64,000 nt of DNA. Origin: Janthinobacterium sp. 344 (GTDB lineage: Bacteria; Pseudomonadota; Gammaproteobacteria; Burkholderiales; Burkholderiaceae_D). The position numbers and the translations under genes were made by a program. The notes under the pieces were generated by a model, which was not told where the DNA came from, did no database searches, and was given only the letters and a program-made list of their open reading frames with translations. Shown one piece after another: positions 42,482 to 50,079 of this stretch. The stretch is from NCBI RefSeq assembly GCF_900112025.1, contig NZ_FOKL01000015.1:1-64000 (forward strand), written 5' to 3'. Every line of letters begins with the position of its first letter. The first letter of the stretch is position 1.

Positions 42482-43729
42482 ATGCCACCTGCCACCTCTG
42501 CCCTGATCACCAATGACGCCGTCGTCCTCGGCCTGCTCGCCATCACTCTGGGGGCCGTCTTCTGGACCGCCTCGCGCGCGGACGGCTTCTGGAAAAAGTT
42601 TTACACGTATATCCCTTCCTTGCTGATGTGCTATCTGATCCCGGCGCTGCTCAATACCTTCGGCATCATCGACGGCAACGCCTCCGGCCTGTACGCCGTG
42701 GCGCGCGACTACCTGCTGCCCAGCGCGCTGGTCCTGCTGTGCGTGGCCATCGATTTCGGCGGCATTATCCGCCTCGGGCCCAAGGCCATCATCATGTTCC
42801 TCACGGGAACGCTGGGCGTCATGCTGGGCGCGCTCGTCTCGTTCGAGGCCCTGCGGCTGATCCACCCGGAAACGGTGGCGGGCGACACGTGGCGCGGCAT
42901 GACGACTGTCGCCGGCTCGTGGATAGGCGGCGGCGCCAACCAGGCGGCCATGAAGGAAGTGTTTGAAGTGGACGCCACCCTGTTTGGCCAGTTCGTCGCC
43001 GTCGATGTGCTGGTGGCCAACGTCTGGACGGCCGTGCTGCTGTTCCTGGCCGGCCGCGCGGGCGCCTTCGACCGCTGGACCGGCGCGGATCTGTCCGCCA
43101 TCAACGCGCTCAAGGACAGCATCGAAAGTTACCGTGCGCAGCATGCGCGCATCGCCACCCTGACCGACATCATGATCATCCTCGGCGTGGGCCTGGGCGT
43201 GACGGGCCTGTCACACTTCCTGGCCGGCCCCATCATCGGCTGGATCACCACCCTGCCGGCCGCATGGCGCCTGCAGGATTACAGCCTGACGTCGAACTTC
43301 TTCTGGATCGTCGTGCTCGCCACCACGTTCGGCCTGCTGCTGAGCTTTACCCGGGCGCGCAGCCTGGAAGGCGCGGGCGCCTCGACCATCGGCTCGGCCA
43401 TGCTGTACGTGCTGGTGGCCACCATCGGTATGCACATGGACTTGAAGGCCCTGTTCGACAAGCCCTTTTTGTTCCTGCTGGGCCTGATCTGGATCGCCGT
43501 GCATGGCGGCCTGATGCTGCTCGTCGCCAAGCTGATCCGCGCGCCCCTGTTCTTCATGGCCGTGGGATCACAGGCGAACATCGGCGGCGCCGCCTCGGCC
43601 CCCGTCATCGCCAGCGCCTTCCACCCTTCGCTGGCGCCCGTCGGCGTGCTGCTGGCCGTGCTCGGCTACGCGCTGGGCACCTACGGCGCCTACATCACGG
43701 GCTTGATCCTGCGCGGCATGGCGGGGTGA
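42482..43729 (+). CDS. DUF819-family integral membrane protein
   Basis: 415 residues with about 11 hydrophobic helices, matching the DUF819 (YjcL-like) family of uncharacterised permeases. Conserved features visible are TVAGSWIGGGANQAAMKEV (about 140-160) and GSQANIGGAASAPVIASAFHPSLAPVGVLLAVLGYALGTY near the C-terminus, likely paired substrate-binding loops. The substrate is unknown; amino-acid or dipeptide uptake has been guessed for relatives. ATG 42482 has a weak ribosome site. A terminator-like hairpin follows. Confidence 0.82.
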   Translation: MPPATSALITNDAVVLGLLAITLGAVFWTASRADGFWKKFYTYIPSLLMCYLIPALLNTFGIIDGNASGLYAVARDYLLPSALVLLCVAIDFGGIIRLGPKAIIMFLTGTLGVMLGALVSFEALRLIHPETVAGDTWRGMTTVAGSWIGGGANQAAMKEVFEVDATLFGQFVAVDVLVANVWTAVLLFLAGRAGAFDRWTGADLSAINALKDSIESYRAQHARIATLTDIMIILGVGLGVTGLSHFLAGPIIGWITTLPAAWRLQDYSLTSNFFWIVVLATTFGLLLSFTRARSLEGAGASTIGSAMLYVLVATIGMHMDLKALFDKPFLFLLGLIWIAVHGGLMLLVAKLIRAPLFFMAVGSQANIGGAASAPVIASAFHPSLAPVGVLLAVLGYALGTYGAYITGLILRGMAG

Positions 43730-43739
43730 CGGTGCTGCC

Positions 43740-43775
43740 GGCAAGGTCAGGCGACCTGCAGTGCCTGACTTTGCC
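43740..43775. terminator. Hairpin after DUF819
   Basis: A 13-bp stem (GGCAAGGTCAGGC with GCCTGACTTTGCC, one G-U) and a 10-base loop. AAAAG follows rather than Ts, so it is a stronger fit as a terminator on the minus strand or a Rho-type site. The 43776-43968 spacer is AT-rich, without a confident promoter. Confidence 0.45.
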
Positions 43776-43968
43776 AAAAGCCACCGATAGTTGTTGTAGT
43801 GAGACACATGACAATATACATGGCAAAAAATGCAACTTCCTTCCTCTAGTGAGCTGAAGTAAGATAATATTTTAAAGCAACATCAATTCGATAAAAAACA
43901 GCTTATCGCTTTACTCTAAAAATGGCCTTGCACAAACAGCAAGGCACAGTCGGCCAAGTCCTCTACTC

Positions 43969-44766
43969 ATGGATCACCTTCCCCAAACTTTGCTGACGGA
44001 TGTCAGGTCAGCGTGGACCGGCACCCACCGCCCTACGCCCGCTGAAATGCGCGCGTCCCCTTACGATACAAGGTCACCGGCGCAAGCCACTAAAAAACTG
44101 CTGGTGTGCGCCGCGCCGCGCGCATCGAGCAAGCGGCTCGCACGATTGTTGCTCGGTGCAGGCATGGGCGTGCCGCTGGAGTATTTCAATATCAATAGCA
44201 TCGAGCCGCTGACGCAGCGCTGGCAGATCAAAAAACAGGATTACCTGCAGAATATCTATGCCAGGCGTTCCGCAAATGGCATATTCGCCGCGAATATCCA
44301 GTTCCCGCAAATGCAAAAATGGCCCTTTGCACAAGACTTTGCCGCCTTGTTCGAGGGAGCGACGGTCATTCATTTGATCCGCGACAACAAGGTCGCCCAG
44401 GCAGCATCGCTGGCGACTTGCATGCTCACGGGACGCTGGAGTTTCGAAGAGAGCACGGTGACAAAAAATTTCTCGACCTGGCGCCTCAAGTTAGCGGCGC
44501 GCAAGGCAATGCAATTAATTGCAGAGGACGAACAGCTCTGGCAGGGCTGGTTCAGGCAACGGGACATCCAGCCGTTCGTCATCAGTACCGAACGTGTCAA
44601 CCGGGAAGACCTGATGCTGATCAATGAAATCGCCGGCTTCCTTGGTACGGATATCGATGCCGCCAGCGCCCAGCGCATGCTGGGCGTGGATAGGGGAGCC
44701 TATCCGGGCGACCTGGAATTGAAAGCACGCCTGAACGCACTGATCGAAGAATTGTCGCTGCGGTGA
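43969..44766 (+). CDS. Stf0-like sulfotransferase
   Basis: 265 residues. The 5'-phosphosulfate loop is LLVCAAPRASSKRLARLL (about 44-61), in the place of the PRSGST loop, and VIHLIRDNKVAQAAS (about 132-146) supplies the 3'-phosphate Arg and Ser. ANIQFPQMQKW and the EDEQLWQGWF pattern also fit Stf0, which transfers sulfate from PAPS to sugars such as trehalose. Soluble, no signal peptide. It is first of a four-gene same-strand set. No ribosome site is clear at ATG 43969; M27 is an alternative. The acceptor is unknown. Confidence 0.75.
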   Translation: MDHLPQTLLTDVRSAWTGTHRPTPAEMRASPYDTRSPAQATKKLLVCAAPRASSKRLARLLLGAGMGVPLEYFNINSIEPLTQRWQIKKQDYLQNIYARRSANGIFAANIQFPQMQKWPFAQDFAALFEGATVIHLIRDNKVAQAASLATCMLTGRWSFEESTVTKNFSTWRLKLAARKAMQLIAEDEQLWQGWFRQRDIQPFVISTERVNREDLMLINEIAGFLGTDIDAASAQRMLGVDRGAYPGDLELKARLNALIEELSLR

Positions 44767-44829
44767 CATGCAACGGCGACCCATTTATCATATTTCCATC
44801 CAATCTACTGCAACAATACAGGATCCACA

Positions 44830-45876
44830 TTGAATATCTTTATGGTGCGGCCGACCACGCGCAATATCGGCAACGATCTCATTGGCTACGCCACGGCGGA
44901 ATTGTTGTACGAAGTCTTCGGACCATCAACGAACGTCGTCAGCATTCCCGCCTTGAAGGGACCACAGTTTGGCGGTCTGGTGCCGCGCCAGATCTATGAC
45001 ATGAACCGCCTCGCCGATGCCGTCATCGTCGGAGGCGGCAATTTGTTCGAGAACGGCCAGCTGTCCTACGATATGCAAGCGGTCAATGCCTTGCGCCGGC
45101 CGATGATGCTGATGGGCCTATCCCATGGCCGCATCACGGGCCGCGACGGGCAGATGGAAGACCGCACCGATGCGCTCAACCCCGCTGCGATACGGCACCT
45201 GGTCGAACACGCCAAGGTAGCCATGGTGCGCGACACGGGTTCGCAGGAAATCCTCGCCGACCTTGGTGCCAAGGTAACGGTCGGTGGCTGTCCCACCTTG
45301 TACCTGCCGCCAAATGCCGGCGGCGAGGCCGCCAAGGGTGGCGTGATCATTTCCGTTCGCCATCCCATGCGCATGAGCGTTCCTGCCACCTTGCAGTGGC
45401 GTATCGCTGAAGACCTGCGCCGCCTGATAGCGGCCCTGCGCGCCGAATATGCGCAACCGATCTATCTGGCCTGCCACGACTACATCGATCTCGAATTTGC
45501 GGCCGGATTCCCCGACGCGGCTCCCTTGTATTTTGACGAGGTCGGCCGCTACATCGAAGCGTTGCGCACCTGCACGCTGCACGTCAGCTACCGTCTGCAT
45601 GGTTTCCTGCCCTGCCTGGCCATGGGCTCGCACAGCATCAATCTGTCGTATGACGAGCGGGGCAGCTCGATGCTCTCCACCATCGGCATGGCATCGTGGG
45701 ATGTTGACCTGCTGCAAAACGGCGACTGCGTCGACGCCATCATGGATCGCGCGCGATCGATCGAGCACTATCGCCGCGCGCGCCAGGACGCCCTGCCATT
45801 GATCCAGGAATTGCGCCAGATCACGGTGCGCGGCCTGCAGGCATTGCGCGCCCTGGCCCAGGAGCAACCAGCATGA
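44830..45876 (+). CDS. Polysaccharide pyruvyl transferase-like protein
   Basis: 348 residues with the CsaB/ExoV-like double Rossmann layout. FMVRPTTRNIGNDLIGYATAELL opens the fold. ADAVIVGGGNLFE (about 62-74), VRDTGSQEILADLG, VIISVRHPM and LHVSYRLHGFLPCLAMG (the conserved HGxxP-like His) follow. Such enzymes add ketal-linked pyruvate from PEP to a sugar, or act as related sugar transferases. The start is TTG 44830 with AGGA six bases upstream. The stop overlaps the next ATG by four bases. Confidence 0.75.
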   Translation: MNIFMVRPTTRNIGNDLIGYATAELLYEVFGPSTNVVSIPALKGPQFGGLVPRQIYDMNRLADAVIVGGGNLFENGQLSYDMQAVNALRRPMMLMGLSHGRITGRDGQMEDRTDALNPAAIRHLVEHAKVAMVRDTGSQEILADLGAKVTVGGCPTLYLPPNAGGEAAKGGVIISVRHPMRMSVPATLQWRIAEDLRRLIAALRAEYAQPIYLACHDYIDLEFAAGFPDAAPLYFDEVGRYIEALRTCTLHVSYRLHGFLPCLAMGSHSINLSYDERGSSMLSTIGMASWDVDLLQNGDCVDAIMDRARSIEHYRRARQDALPLIQELRQITVRGLQALRALAQEQPA

Positions 45877-47177
45877 CTTCGCTTGCCCCCTCCGCCGCCT
45901 CGCAGGGCGTCTGGCTGAAATACCATGCACGCGATCTCGCCGCGTGGGAAAACATGACCGGGCGCGTGCTTGAAGAGATCATTTCGACGGTCGGGCAAAT
46001 GAAAGGGGCTGCGGCTGCCCAATTGCTGCGCGAGCAGGGTATCGAGCGGCTGCATGAGGTCATCGATACCGAGGATGTGACGGCGCTGCGCAACCAGGTG
46101 CTCGAACAATTGCGCCAGCCCTTGCTGGCCATGGCGGCGGCGGTGGGGCGCCAGATCCTGGGCTGGGATGGCGATTTTTATGTGGATGATTATTTGATCC
46201 TGCGCATTAACTTCCCTTACGAAGTTGCCCGCAAAACCAATCCGGCGAGTGAAAACCCCGGCATTGGCCGCCTCAGCGCGAACGTCCGCGATCAGTTTCA
46301 GGCCCGCAAGGTCATCGATCCCGTGTATGCCCCGAAAGATTATCACCGCGGCCACCCGCCAGCGGCCTGGGCACATGGTCCGCATATCGACAGCTGGGCA
46401 GGTCATTCCCGCGATGGACGCAATATCTGGTGGGCCATCGGCGACGTGCCGGCCGAAGCGGGCATGGTCCTGTATCCGGAATTGGCCGATGTCCCGCTGC
46501 CCTGCGAACGCCGCACGCTCTACCTGCAAGCGGGCTACCGCCTGCCGGTGCCGACCTACTTGCCACTGCAGGCGGGCGAGATGCTGGTCTTCGACCCCGA
46601 AGTGCTGCACGGCACGCATCTCAATACGACGGACGCGACGCGCGTGGCCATCTCCATGCGCCTCAATGCTTCCCGGCCCACCTTCGATCCTGCCTGCTTT
46701 TATTCACGCGAATTCTGGCGCCGGGCGGCCGATATCGAGCGGGGACATGACGAAGTCCTGCACCTGCGACGCGAAGACAACTTCGGCGCACCGGTTACGC
46801 CAGCACCCGTGCAAACGCCCCCTGCCGTTCCCGTCATCGCCGGCACCCTGGACCAGGCAGCCGGCCTCATACATGGCCGGCTGCCTGCGACTTTGCCTGA
46901 CACAGGGCGCGTCATCGTCGATGCCGCCCCCTATCGCATCATGCTGGTACGAACCGGCGACGGCACCCGCGCCTACGACGCGGCTTGTCCTCATTATGGC
47001 GTGGATCTGGCCGATGGAGGATGCGACGCGGATAAGGTGTATTGCCCCGCATGTGCGATTGCGTTCGATTTACAAACAGGAAAGTCATCCTGTCCTTCAC
47101 TGACGCTGCAATCGTATGACGTCAGGCAAGATGGAACCGGCGTGCACATAGGTGTAGCGCCCGCGGTAGCCACATGA
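45873..47177 (+). CDS. Phytanoyl-CoA-dioxygenase-like / Rieske domain fusion protein
   Basis: 434 residues. The N-terminal half (about 100-280) resembles non-heme Fe(II)/2-oxoglutarate oxygenases: H171-I-D173, a distal His in HGTH (246-249) and R257. A linker (about 300-320) leads to a small Rieske-like domain (about 320-430) with C372-P-H374 and C391-P-A-C394. The normal second pair is C-x-x-H, so His is replaced by Cys, giving a possible three-Cys one-His cluster. It may hydroxylate a sugar or lipid with its own electron-transfer module. It is coupled by 4-bp overlaps to both neighbours. Confidence 0.7.
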   Translation: MTSLAPSAASQGVWLKYHARDLAAWENMTGRVLEEIISTVGQMKGAAAAQLLREQGIERLHEVIDTEDVTALRNQVLEQLRQPLLAMAAAVGRQILGWDGDFYVDDYLILRINFPYEVARKTNPASENPGIGRLSANVRDQFQARKVIDPVYAPKDYHRGHPPAAWAHGPHIDSWAGHSRDGRNIWWAIGDVPAEAGMVLYPELADVPLPCERRTLYLQAGYRLPVPTYLPLQAGEMLVFDPEVLHGTHLNTTDATRVAISMRLNASRPTFDPACFYSREFWRRAADIERGHDEVLHLRREDNFGAPVTPAPVQTPPAVPVIAGTLDQAAGLIHGRLPATLPDTGRVIVDAAPYRIMLVRTGDGTRAYDAACPHYGVDLADGGCDADKVYCPACAIAFDLQTGKSSCPSLTLQSYDVRQDGTGVHIGVAPAVAT

Positions 47178-48232
47178 CGGCAAGCACGCCAGGCCTGTCC
47201 GCCGGACCGGAAACCGTGACGGCGACGGCGAGTGTCGTTATTTGCACCCGGAACGGCTGGACCAGAGGTTTTCTTGACGAAACCTTAAGATCCGTATTGA
47301 TGCAGACCTGGCCTGCCAGCCAGATCTTGCTGGTCGATGATGCCAGCAGCGACGGCACAGCCGCCTATGTCCAGCATGCCTACCCCCAGGTGACCGTCCT
47401 GCAAAATGCGGGCACCGGGCTGGCCGCGGCCAGGAACACGGGAGTCGCCGCAGCCCGCTTTGCGTGGGTCGCGTTCATCGACGATGACGACGTCTGGCAC
47501 CCCGAAAAACTGGCGCAGCAACTGGCACAGGCAAACGCCTGCGCCACGCCTGACGCGGTCATCTGGGCATCGCAGGTAGCCACGCTCAATAGCCATGGCG
47601 GCATGCCCGTACCCCGGGCGACGCCACGACAGTTTGCCACCTGGCCCGCCTGCCTGCTGGGCTCGCCGATTCAGCCATCGAGTGTGCTGCTCAGTAAAAA
47701 TCTGCTTTCCCGCATGGGGCCGTTCAACGAGCAGATACCGGAAGGCGCCGCCTACGATTACTGGATACGCTGTCTGAGCAGTGGCATATCCATACGCTAC
47801 AGCACCAATCCGTTGCTTTATTATCGACAACATCACCCACAAATGACGGCTGCGGTGCGCAAGCTCGAGCATTTCCTGCGTATTGACGCCCTTGTTGCCC
47901 CCCACCTTGCGCGGCTGGCGGCAGCGCAGGCGGACAGAATCCGTTTGGCACGCTGGCTGCACAACCTGCGTTCCCTGATGGCCCATTCCGGCGTGCGTGC
48001 AGCGCTACGCTACTGGAACACCAGCGTGCCGCTTCCGGCCCTGCGCCTGGGCCTGGGCCTGCGGATCATTTTCTATTTTTTGCTCGATACGCTGGGCTGC
48101 AGGTCGCCCCATCGGATACGCCACGTGCTACGCCAAAAAGCCATGCGCATACTCATCGGCGCGGATAGATCCCTCCCGCAGACGCAAGACGACATTTCCA
48201 GGCATCGCAGCCAGGGAACGCTGGTGGATTAA
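47174..48232 (+). CDS. Glycosyltransferase family 2
   Basis: 352 residues of GT-A fold. ASVVICTRNGWTRGFLDETLRSVLMQTWPASQILLVDDASSDG opens the nucleotide-sugar site, and the metal-binding FIDDDDVWHPEKL is at about residue 95. The C-terminal part (about 230-330) is basic and contains one hydrophobic segment near residue 290, so it may be membrane-associated. It probably adds a sugar to the locus product. It starts inside the previous stop (ATGA), and its stop overlaps that of the convergent ABC exporter by four bases. Confidence 0.82.
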   Translation: MTASTPGLSAGPETVTATASVVICTRNGWTRGFLDETLRSVLMQTWPASQILLVDDASSDGTAAYVQHAYPQVTVLQNAGTGLAAARNTGVAAARFAWVAFIDDDDVWHPEKLAQQLAQANACATPDAVIWASQVATLNSHGGMPVPRATPRQFATWPACLLGSPIQPSSVLLSKNLLSRMGPFNEQIPEGAAYDYWIRCLSSGISIRYSTNPLLYYRQHHPQMTAAVRKLEHFLRIDALVAPHLARLAAAQADRIRLARWLHNLRSLMAHSGVRAALRYWNTSVPLPALRLGLGLRIIFYFLLDTLGCRSPHRIRHVLRQKAMRILIGADRSLPQTQDDISRHRSQGTLVD

Positions 48233-50079
48233 GCCAGGAAACCGTTGCAGGCAGGTTGCGGATGGTCACTGGCAGGTGCCGCATCCTGCGGCGCGCCGTG
48301 CTCCACCAAACGCCCCCGCTCGAGCACCAGCACCTGATCGGCATTTCGCACCTTGGCGAGGTCGTGCACAATCATGACGATGGTCATCGTGCCACGCAAG
48401 TTTTCGATCGCCCGGTAGACTGCACGCGCATTCGCAGGATCCAGTGCACTGGCGGGCTCGTCCAGCACCAGCACGCTGGGCTGGCGTAGCAAGGCCCGCG
48501 CCAGCGCCAGGCGCTGCCGCTCACCGCCCGACAGCTGCCGGCCATGATCACCAATCAGGGCGTCCAGCCCACCCGGGCGACGGGAGACAAAGTCCAGGGC
48601 TTGCGCTTGCTCCAGCGCGGCAAGCAAGGTTGCGTCCGTGACCGACTGCGCCGTCCATGTCAGATTTTCACGAATGGAGGCATTCAAAAAAAAGGAGTCT
48701 TGCGGAACATACGCCACCGAGCGGCGCCATGCGTGCACGGACTCGCCTGTGATCGGGATGCCATCCACCGTCATGCAGCCGCTGTCGGGCTGCAACAAGC
48801 CAAGTATCATATCGGCCAAGGTCGTCTTTCCGGCACCGGACTCGCCCACCAGCGCCACCATGCTGCCCGCCTCGATAACGACATTGATACCGTCAATGGC
48901 GTTCGGAGCAGCCGGACTGTAGCGGTAGGTCACGTCCTGCAATTGCAATTGATGACGCAGCACGATCGCCGCCACGCAATTCGGCTTCGCCTCCGCATGC
49001 AAGGTACATTGCGCCGTCACCGCTTCGATTTCGGCATATGCGGGCAAGCTGTTGGCGATGGTCTGGAGACCATGATACATGTCCCGCAGGATCGGTACCA
49101 TGCGCGCAAAGACAAGCGCCAGCAGTATCATTTCCGGGAAAGCAAGCAGGTTGCCGCCTTGCGCCATCATCACCAGCACGCTCACGGCAATTGCCGCGCT
49201 GAGCTGCAACATGGCGCGCACCGTGGCGCCCGCCGTTTTATGTCGCCGCGTGGCCTGGTGCAATCCGGCCGAGCTGACATTGAAGGCATCGACGTGCTTG
49301 CCTTCGGCGCTCATGCTTTTCACCAGCTTCAAACCATTGACGAAGTCTGCCGTTTCGCGCTGTATGCTGCGCTGATGGCGCTCAAACTGCCGGCCAGACG
49401 CCTGGGCACGCCTGACAAGATTACGGGCAACCAGTGCAAGGATCAAGCCGATTGCCACTGCCGCCACCGTGAGTATCGGCGAAATCATTATCGCCACGAC
49501 GACATTCGTCATCAGCAAGATGCCTTGTACCGCCAACTGCAAGCTTTGCACGGCACTCTGCCGCAAGGCTTCGACATCGCGGCAAAGAATGGCATGCAGA
49601 TAGGCATGGGATTGGCTGCCCAGATAGTGCCACGATGCGCCAGCCACGGCCGCCATAGTGCGCTGGCGCAGCGCGGCGACAAAACGCAGTTGTACGTCCG
49701 CCGCCATGATGTCGCGGCACCATTCAATCAATGAACGACAAGCGATCACCGCCACCATCAATACCAGCAAGGTCGACAATGACAATGGCAGGCCCAGCAT
49801 CTGCAAATGTTCACTGAGAAATTTACTGACAGCATCCTGGGGCGAGGTCCGGCTGCTGCCCAGCCGGAGTATAGGCAGCAGCAGCATGAGTCCCACGCCT
49901 TCGGTGGCGCCAGCCAGCAGCAGCAGCCCCATGGTCAAGGCGATGCGTCGTCGGCCTGCCGACTTGACGAGTTGCGCCACGAAATATGCGAACTCGCGCC
50001 GAAAACCCGATGGGCGAGCGGGCAAGGAGGATGTTTCCAACGTTTCCGTGGACGAGGGATTGGATGGATGGTGGTACAC
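48229..50079 (-). CDS. ABC exporter, fused permease-ATPase (MsbA-like)
   Basis: 616 residues. Six hydrophobic helices (about 45-340) form a type I ABC exporter half, followed by a nucleotide-binding domain (about 385-600) with Walker A GESGAGKTT, Q-loop VPQDSFF, signature QLSGGERQRLALARALL, Walker B VLVLDEPAS and H-loop VMIVHD. It would work as a homodimer. It is convergent with the sulfotransferase/pyruvyltransferase/GT set and a reasonable exporter for its product, though this link is only positional. A terminator between them is not visible. Confidence 0.85.
   Translation of the reverse strand: MYHHPSNPSSTETLETSSLPARPSGFRREFAYFVAQLVKSAGRRRIALTMGLLLLAGATEGVGLMLLLPILRLGSSRTSPQDAVSKFLSEHLQMLGLPLSLSTLLVLMVAVIACRSLIEWCRDIMAADVQLRFVAALRQRTMAAVAGASWHYLGSQSHAYLHAILCRDVEALRQSAVQSLQLAVQGILLMTNVVVAIMISPILTVAAVAIGLILALVARNLVRRAQASGRQFERHQRSIQRETADFVNGLKLVKSMSAEGKHVDAFNVSSAGLHQATRRHKTAGATVRAMLQLSAAIAVSVLVMMAQGGNLLAFPEMILLALVFARMVPILRDMYHGLQTIANSLPAYAEIEAVTAQCTLHAEAKPNCVAAIVLRHQLQLQDVTYRYSPAAPNAIDGINVVIEAGSMVALVGESGAGKTTLADMILGLLQPDSGCMTVDGIPITGESVHAWRRSVAYVPQDSFFLNASIRENLTWTAQSVTDATLLAALEQAQALDFVSRRPGGLDALIGDHGRQLSGGERQRLALARALLRQPSVLVLDEPASALDPANARAVYRAIENLRGTMTIVMIVHDLAKVRNADQVLVLERGRLVEHGAPQDAAPASDHPQPACNGFLA

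Follow-up and report, generated by a model that had tools for sequence, protein, structure and literature searches.

The window, by which we mean the whole stretch of 64,000 nucleotides analysed here, contains a gene from Janthinobacterium sp. 344 whose predicted product joins a PhyH-type Fe/2OG oxygenase to a C-terminal Rieske-fold domain. This gene, its parts and its neighbours are as follows.

43969..44766, + strand: Stf0-type sulfotransferase gene of the same island (Pfam Sulphotransf, 49.1 bits; same order in four genomes)
44830..45876, + strand: polysaccharide pyruvyl transferase family gene (PS_pyruv_trans, 77.9 bits; last 4 bases shared with the start of the fusion; same order in four genomes)
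45873..47177, + strand: fusion gene for a PhyH-type Fe/2OG oxygenase followed by a Rieske-fold domain at the C-terminus (434 aa, ATG start; assigned from the ORF, Pfam and orthologues that are 87-88% identical)
46269..46646, + strand: Pfam PhyH match (PF05721), residues 133-258 (26.6 bits, cut-off 22)
46383..46391, + strand: H171-x-D173 of the putative iron facial triad (both residues invariant in nine aligned proteins)
46608..46643, + strand: putative distal H246 and 2OG-binding R257 (+11), invariant in the same nine proteins
46773..46877, + strand: Pro/Ala-rich linker, residues ~301-335 (seen in the sequence; dN/dS above that of either domain)
46914..47087, + strand: Pfam Rieske match (PF00355), residues 348-405 (29.2 bits, cut-off 20.3)
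46986..46994, + strand: box I, C372-P-H374, the same in four Janthinobacterium genomes
47043..47054, + strand: box II, C391-P-A-C394, with Cys where the second His ligand is expected, the same in four Janthinobacterium genomes
47174..48232, + strand: GT2 glycosyltransferase gene (Glycos_transf_2, 92 bits; first 4 bases shared with the end of the fusion; same order in four genomes)
48229..50079, - strand: MsbA/HepA-like ABC exporter gene (Pfam/NCBIfam), in the island of the window's genome only

The initial annotation of this locus had the reading frame, its coordinates and the motif spacing right: residues 375-390 form the 16 between H374 and C391, and the complete motif reads C372-P-H374-x16-C391-P-A-C394. 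Its assignment of the two halves to PhyH/2OG and Rieske families agrees with the profile searches, in which both matches exceed their Pfam gathering scores, and the cysteine that it placed at the second histidine position (C394, codon TGT at 47052-47054) is read in the window and in three further Janthinobacterium genomes. The 4-base overlaps with both neighbouring genes in the window suggest coupled translation.

The first half looks like an intact PhyH-type oxygenase, supported both by the Pfam match and by the invariant set H171-x-D173...H246...R257. We take H171-x-D173 to be iron facial triad residues, as in PhyH enzymes, H246 to be the distal histidine and R257, 11 residues further on as in PhyH, to be the 2OG-binding arginine. 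A Rieske-oxygenase catalytic domain was absent from the Pfam and NCBIfam matches of the fusion up to an E-value of 1, with PhyH found instead. The 2OG oxygenases of NCBIfam TIGR04324 ('sporadic carbohydrate cluster') resemble the fusion in the oxygenase half and in their polysaccharide gene context; the first half scored 39.1 bits against this model, far under the cut-off of 150, and falls outside it. Since the model is 248 positions long, it is unlikely to take in a Rieske part. In the full-length AF2 model, built from two sequences, pLDDT was below 50 at residues 90-317 and likewise in the box-II loop (392-395).

The second half was modelled in isolation (residues 330-434, AF2 with two sequences, mean pLDDT 68.6). 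The top Foldseek matches of this model were the Rieske ferredoxins 5bok (TM 0.78/0.80) and 2qpz (0.79/0.80), and nitrite reductase small subunits (e.g. 3c0d, 4aiv) also matched, at lower TM values of 0.66-0.70. The Rieske fold proposed at the outset is thus supported by TM values of up to ~0.8 to Rieske ferredoxins, for a model of moderate confidence of the isolated domain. NCBIfam matched this half to Rieske ferredoxin subunits, with scores far under the cut-off. The ferredoxins it resembles in fold and sequence are those of ring-hydroxylating dioxygenases (5bok, 3gce, 2qpz), which are separate proteins with a C-x-H..C-x2-H motif; in 5bok and 3gce a histidine is aligned where the fusion has C394. 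The available text of one source gives the Rieske motif as C-x-H-x15-47-C-x2-H and describes one iron of the cluster as held by the two box cysteines and the other by the two histidines (PMC11138216). The four Janthinobacterium genomes with the gene read C-x-H-x16-C-x2-C instead, and because this ligand set departs from the defining motif we describe the domain as Rieske-derived and do not class it as a canonical Rieske centre. No CDGSH domain was among the Pfam and NCBIfam matches of the fusion up to an E-value of 1. A further cysteine, C407 (codon 407, 47091-47093), lies in the loop past box II. The aligned Janthinobacterium copies all have it, as does the more distant homologue L084 (SSC); it may act near the cluster and might even serve as an alternative ligand. 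A PF00355 search of the window's own genome matched three places, the fusion and two others.

We searched 40 Janthinobacterium genomes and found matches in six, of which four were full-length (G000, G004, G005 and G010) and two were weak and partial. CPAC was present in all four full-length carriers. The window copy differs from each of the three others by 211-222 bases; a fifth aligned copy, from Janthinobacterium sp. LM6 (L007, NZ_CP019510.1), is identical to L003/G004 and is not independent. For the window copy against the three others, dN/dS was 0.096-0.104 over the whole gene, 0.085-0.092 in the oxygenase part and 0.100-0.102 in the Rieske part, where dS was 0.92-0.96, and reached 0.14-0.25 in the linker. 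The three comparisons among the other carriers gave 0.07-0.17 for the Rieske part. Positions 372, 374, 391 and 394 were invariant in the four genomes, and the non-ligand C384 was replaced by Ser in one; a change from His to Cys takes two base changes. Judged from the alignment, C394 is no local error or degeneration, because it is kept in four genomes and because the Rieske part is under purifying selection (dN/dS ~0.10).

Relatives outside the genus were sought in 245 genomes of the family, in 399 of the order, by profile in 321 of the class, and in two draws from the phylum, one of 398 genomes with the oxygenase half alone as query and one of 329 genomes by profile with E-values up to 1e-8. 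Some genomes recur between draws, and scoring covered the best 4 to 7 candidates of each genome, so that members may have escaped. Among these best candidates, only G773 (in both phylum draws) and G1159 (in the class search) matched over both halves, and the phylum search with the oxygenase half also gave two genomes with the oxygenase alone. In the family of G773 (f53), 6 of 147 genomes matched and four had the fusion; for two of the four the assembly is less complete (81 and 87%). The family of G1159 consists of two genomes, and the second is without the fusion. The G1159 protein, L084, is a full-length homologue, 31% identical across 446 columns; its Rieske half is complete, and its box II reads CPGH. 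Box II of the four f53 genomes reads CP[AS]H, and the C-x-H..C-x2-H motif is thus found in f53 and in L084. The f53 chains end 10-11 residues past the box-II histidine, with two extra cysteines in that stretch (CP[AS]H-R-x-C-x5-C). These short-ended fusions are:

L069, 1183-2493, - strand
L080, 5512-6675
L081, 6751-7959, - strand
L082, 6863-8050, - strand

The Rieske part of the f53 proteins is without the last strands of the fold and may form a different metal site; as four of the five other fusions end soon after box II, the family as a whole has not retained a complete Rieske fold. A MAFFT placement of C394 against the cysteine three residues past the f53 histidine was rejected, since L084 aligns its histidine to C394 without gaps.

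These relatives alter two points of the initial annotation. It had known of no such natural fusion, and the same architecture is found in two other lineages, with His (L084 and the four f53 genomes). It had also held that CPxH in homologues, with Cys at this locus only, would point to a local error or degeneration: an alignment at position 394 gives His in the homologues outside the genus and Cys throughout the Janthinobacterium carriers, so that the distribution is as it described, but error or degeneration is countered by the agreement of four genomes and the low dN/dS. Because the full-length homologue L084 has CPGH, the fusion is most likely older than the exchange, which presumably ran from His to Cys in the Janthinobacterium lineage.

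We then looked at box II in other Rieske loci. Over two scans, 165 of 192 loci read C-x-H..C-x2-H and none ended in Cys in the Rieske frame. The first scan, which omitted 25 loci (the fusion family, its neighbourhood and the Embleya relative described below), covered 164 loci: 138 had C-x-H-x(12-24)-C-x2-H, representing 135 distinct peptides and hence not all distinct genes, none had C-x2-C only, and 26 were without such a motif near the match. Of these last, 24 had been picked up through the oxygenase or linker part; L042 was off-centre and shows His elsewhere in the analysis, and L119 is another Rieske hit of the window's own genome without a motif in that spacing. The second scan added 28 loci, 27 with His, none with Cys in the Rieske frame and one without the motif. 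Among the loci surveyed, Cys at the box-II His position was seen only in the Janthinobacterium clade; the loci were drawn from similarity or Pfam searches as the best of the matches listed, and strongly altered domains could escape such searches.

The Rieske half itself is not universal among relatives of the oxygenase. On a plasmid of Embleya sp. NBC_00896, a PhyH relative with 30% identity (L072, 7791-8759) is without it, which makes the domain dispensable in at least one relative. Searches of plasmid records returned, among the matches listed, hits to the Rieske part and one oxygenase that has no Rieske half. Phage records gave no tblastn match, and two scans of viral contigs yielded no confirmed relative.

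The gene order Stf0 sulfotransferase, pyruvyl transferase, fusion, GT2 is the same in four Janthinobacterium genomes, and in all four the island is flanked by a DUF819-like membrane gene and a glutamate dehydrogenase gene, both named from the appearance of their sequences. The ABC exporter gene had no match between the GT2 and dehydrogenase genes in the islands of the three other carriers. We examined eight genus mates that do not carry the fusion gene, with 1.5 kb flanks. In six of the eight, 155-349 bases separate the DUF819-like gene from the dehydrogenase gene and no island gene was matched; in G008 the upstream DUF819-like gene was weakly matched, again with no island genes, and in G002 a distant dehydrogenase paralogue was the sole flank match. 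The empty flank site in the mates indicates that the cassette is an accessory island. GC content at 43500-45000, the sulfotransferase end of the island, is 0.56-0.57 against ~0.64-0.65 just upstream. A scan for promoters and terminators gave 2 promoter-like sites against 2.6 expected and 10 terminator-like sites against 6.2 expected (sd 2.4). The island has no gene for a reductase or a ferredoxin partner.

Related genes accompany the fusion elsewhere. In f53, a sulfotransferase and a flippase adjoin the fusion of L080, and L081 looks alike by eye; L082 has sulfotransferase, PS_pyruv_trans and GT2 genes (Pfam) and a flippase-like gene (by eye) beside it; and the L079 fusion has just a flippase-like gene next to it, its other side being occupied by chemotaxis-type genes (by eye). 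Also by eye, the L084 contig has FAD oxidoreductase-like and GT2-like genes downstream of the fusion, and the Embleya homologue is followed by glycosyltransferase- and sulfotransferase-like genes. A predicted role of the fusion in glycan modification is well supported by these sulfotransferase, pyruvyl transferase, glycosyltransferase and flippase neighbours in several lineages.

We propose that the N-terminal PhyH-type Fe(II)/2-oxoglutarate oxygenase would hydroxylate or oxidise one sugar of a glycan that is exported or sits at the cell surface, and which would be made jointly with the adjacent sulfotransferase, pyruvyl transferase and GT2. The C-terminal half would be a tethered Rieske-type ferredoxin domain with a [2Fe-2S] cluster, in which C372 and C391 would hold the inner iron and H374 and C394 the outer iron, a 3Cys:1His ligand set like that of mitoNEET or IscR, yet on a Rieske scaffold. 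Known 2OG oxygenases need no outside electron donor in their main cycle, but when turnover is uncoupled the iron is left in the ferric state, a fault that ascorbate repairs in vitro. The tethered domain could deliver electrons one at a time to the iron of the oxygenase, in all likelihood to rescue ferric iron of this origin, and the exchange of the box-II His for Cys in Janthinobacterium should lower the potential, making the domain a stronger reductant. We infer the cluster type, its potential, the direction of electron flow and the substrate, and we give the reading as a whole, a glycan-modifying PhyH 2OG oxygenase with a tethered [2Fe-2S] reductant whose box II has been retuned by Cys in Janthinobacterium, a probability of about 0.45, somewhat short of even. 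Points against it are that the main 2OG cycle does without a donor, that the Embleya relative has no Rieske half, that the island has no gene for a redox partner, that four of the five other fusions end soon after box II, and that zinc could occupy a C3H site. We are more doubtful of the narrower and only tentatively held proposal that the Janthinobacterium domain would be a natural, selected 3Cys:1His [2Fe-2S] centre of the Rieske fold, serving as the low-potential donor of a self-reducing 2OG enzyme and lying one exchange away from a His-bearing fusion.

The closest known case is the H64C variant of the Sulfolobus solfataricus archaeal Rieske ferredoxin (ARF), which reportedly goes back to Kounosu et al. 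2004. It shares the Rieske scaffold with the fusion and likewise has the box-II His replaced by Cys, giving 3Cys:1His; according to the available text, the change of His64 to Cys produced a new low-potential 3Cys:1His [2Fe-2S] cluster, whereas that of His44 failed (PMC2946596). Residue order makes His64 the box-II ligand and His44 that of box I. The window protein thus has its exchange at the position that worked in ARF, which is the strongest argument for a working cluster; by this analogy the fusion would hold a 3Cys:1His cluster of lower potential. ARF H64C is an engineered, single-domain archaeal ferredoxin, whereas the fusion is natural, bacterial and oxygenase-linked, and is known here from sequence. 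The 3Cys:1His set that the fusion is predicted to share with mitoNEET (CDGSH) and IscR occurs there in folds and motifs other than Rieske. In mitoNEET the ligands are Cys72, Cys74, Cys83 and His87 (PMC9737848, available text); the same source puts gav at 1.945 for mitoNEET and at 1.91 for Rieske clusters. Rieske oxygenases combine a Rieske domain with a mononuclear iron site in a single polypeptide, as predicted for the fusion, but with a 2Cys:2His cluster and a different catalytic domain, whereas the fusion has PhyH first and the Rieske part last; a 2025 review states, in its available text, that no self-sufficient Rieske oxygenase has been identified (PMC12445004). Nor is the fusion one, because its catalytic half belongs to another family. 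Among the papers listed from the literature searched, with subscription journals mostly outside it, we found no report of a PhyH-Rieske fusion or of a natural 3Cys:1His Rieske site, and those listed on the glycan context offered nothing specific. The component families are known, and in these texts a 3Cys:1His site on a Rieske domain was otherwise met only as an engineering result.

The main rival, which we consider unlikely, is that the Cys3His site binds zinc (or mononuclear iron) and that the domain, its Fe-S cluster lost, is a structural or protein-docking module. Rieske cluster loops share their geometry with rubredoxin and zinc-ribbon sites, and a triple variant of ARF was turned into a mononuclear Fe site (PMC2946596, available text); the Cys-rich short ends of the f53 fusions also hint at altered metal sites. 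However, the single exchange that fits the fusion sequence kept [2Fe-2S] in ARF (same source), and the fusion has kept box I and the remaining Rieske fold.

A redox or oxygen/iron sensor, in which a labile 3Cys:1His cluster would gate the oxygenase or its partners and not feed electrons to it, strikes us as less probable again. The His ligand of IscR is said to raise signal sensitivity and lability, and mitoNEET can release its cluster when the His is protonated (available texts of PMC11138216 and PMC9737848). The dispensability of the domain in the Embleya relative would agree with a sensor. On the other hand, the fusions elsewhere have the ordinary 2His set, which usually carries electrons, and no regulatory output is known.

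Decay, with the Rieske half an inert remnant that lost its cluster after the exchange, seems improbable. Cluster-less Rieske-fold proteins exist (NirD), nitrite reductase small subunits were among the Foldseek matches and one ligand has changed. Against this, the window comparisons give the Rieske part a dN/dS close to that of the oxygenase part, none of the four ligand positions changes in the four genomes and the exchange needs two base changes; decay thus appears disfavoured by dN/dS and the unchanged ligands. A sequencing or assembly error or a chance fusion of reading frames is ruled out, as the four genomes, one of them a complete chromosome (NZ_CP019510.1), agree in the reading and the architecture recurs in other families.

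If the reading of a tethered [2Fe-2S] reductant is true, a self-reducing enzyme of this kind would be a new kind of 2OG enzyme. The fusion raises the question of whether a built-in reductant takes the place of ascorbate in some 2OG oxygenases. The clade that keeps the Cys, set beside His-bearing relatives of the same architecture, offers a direct test of how ligand choice affects potential, proton coupling and stability. Outside this clade we came across the ligand swap only in an engineered protein, and nature may thus have a use for it.
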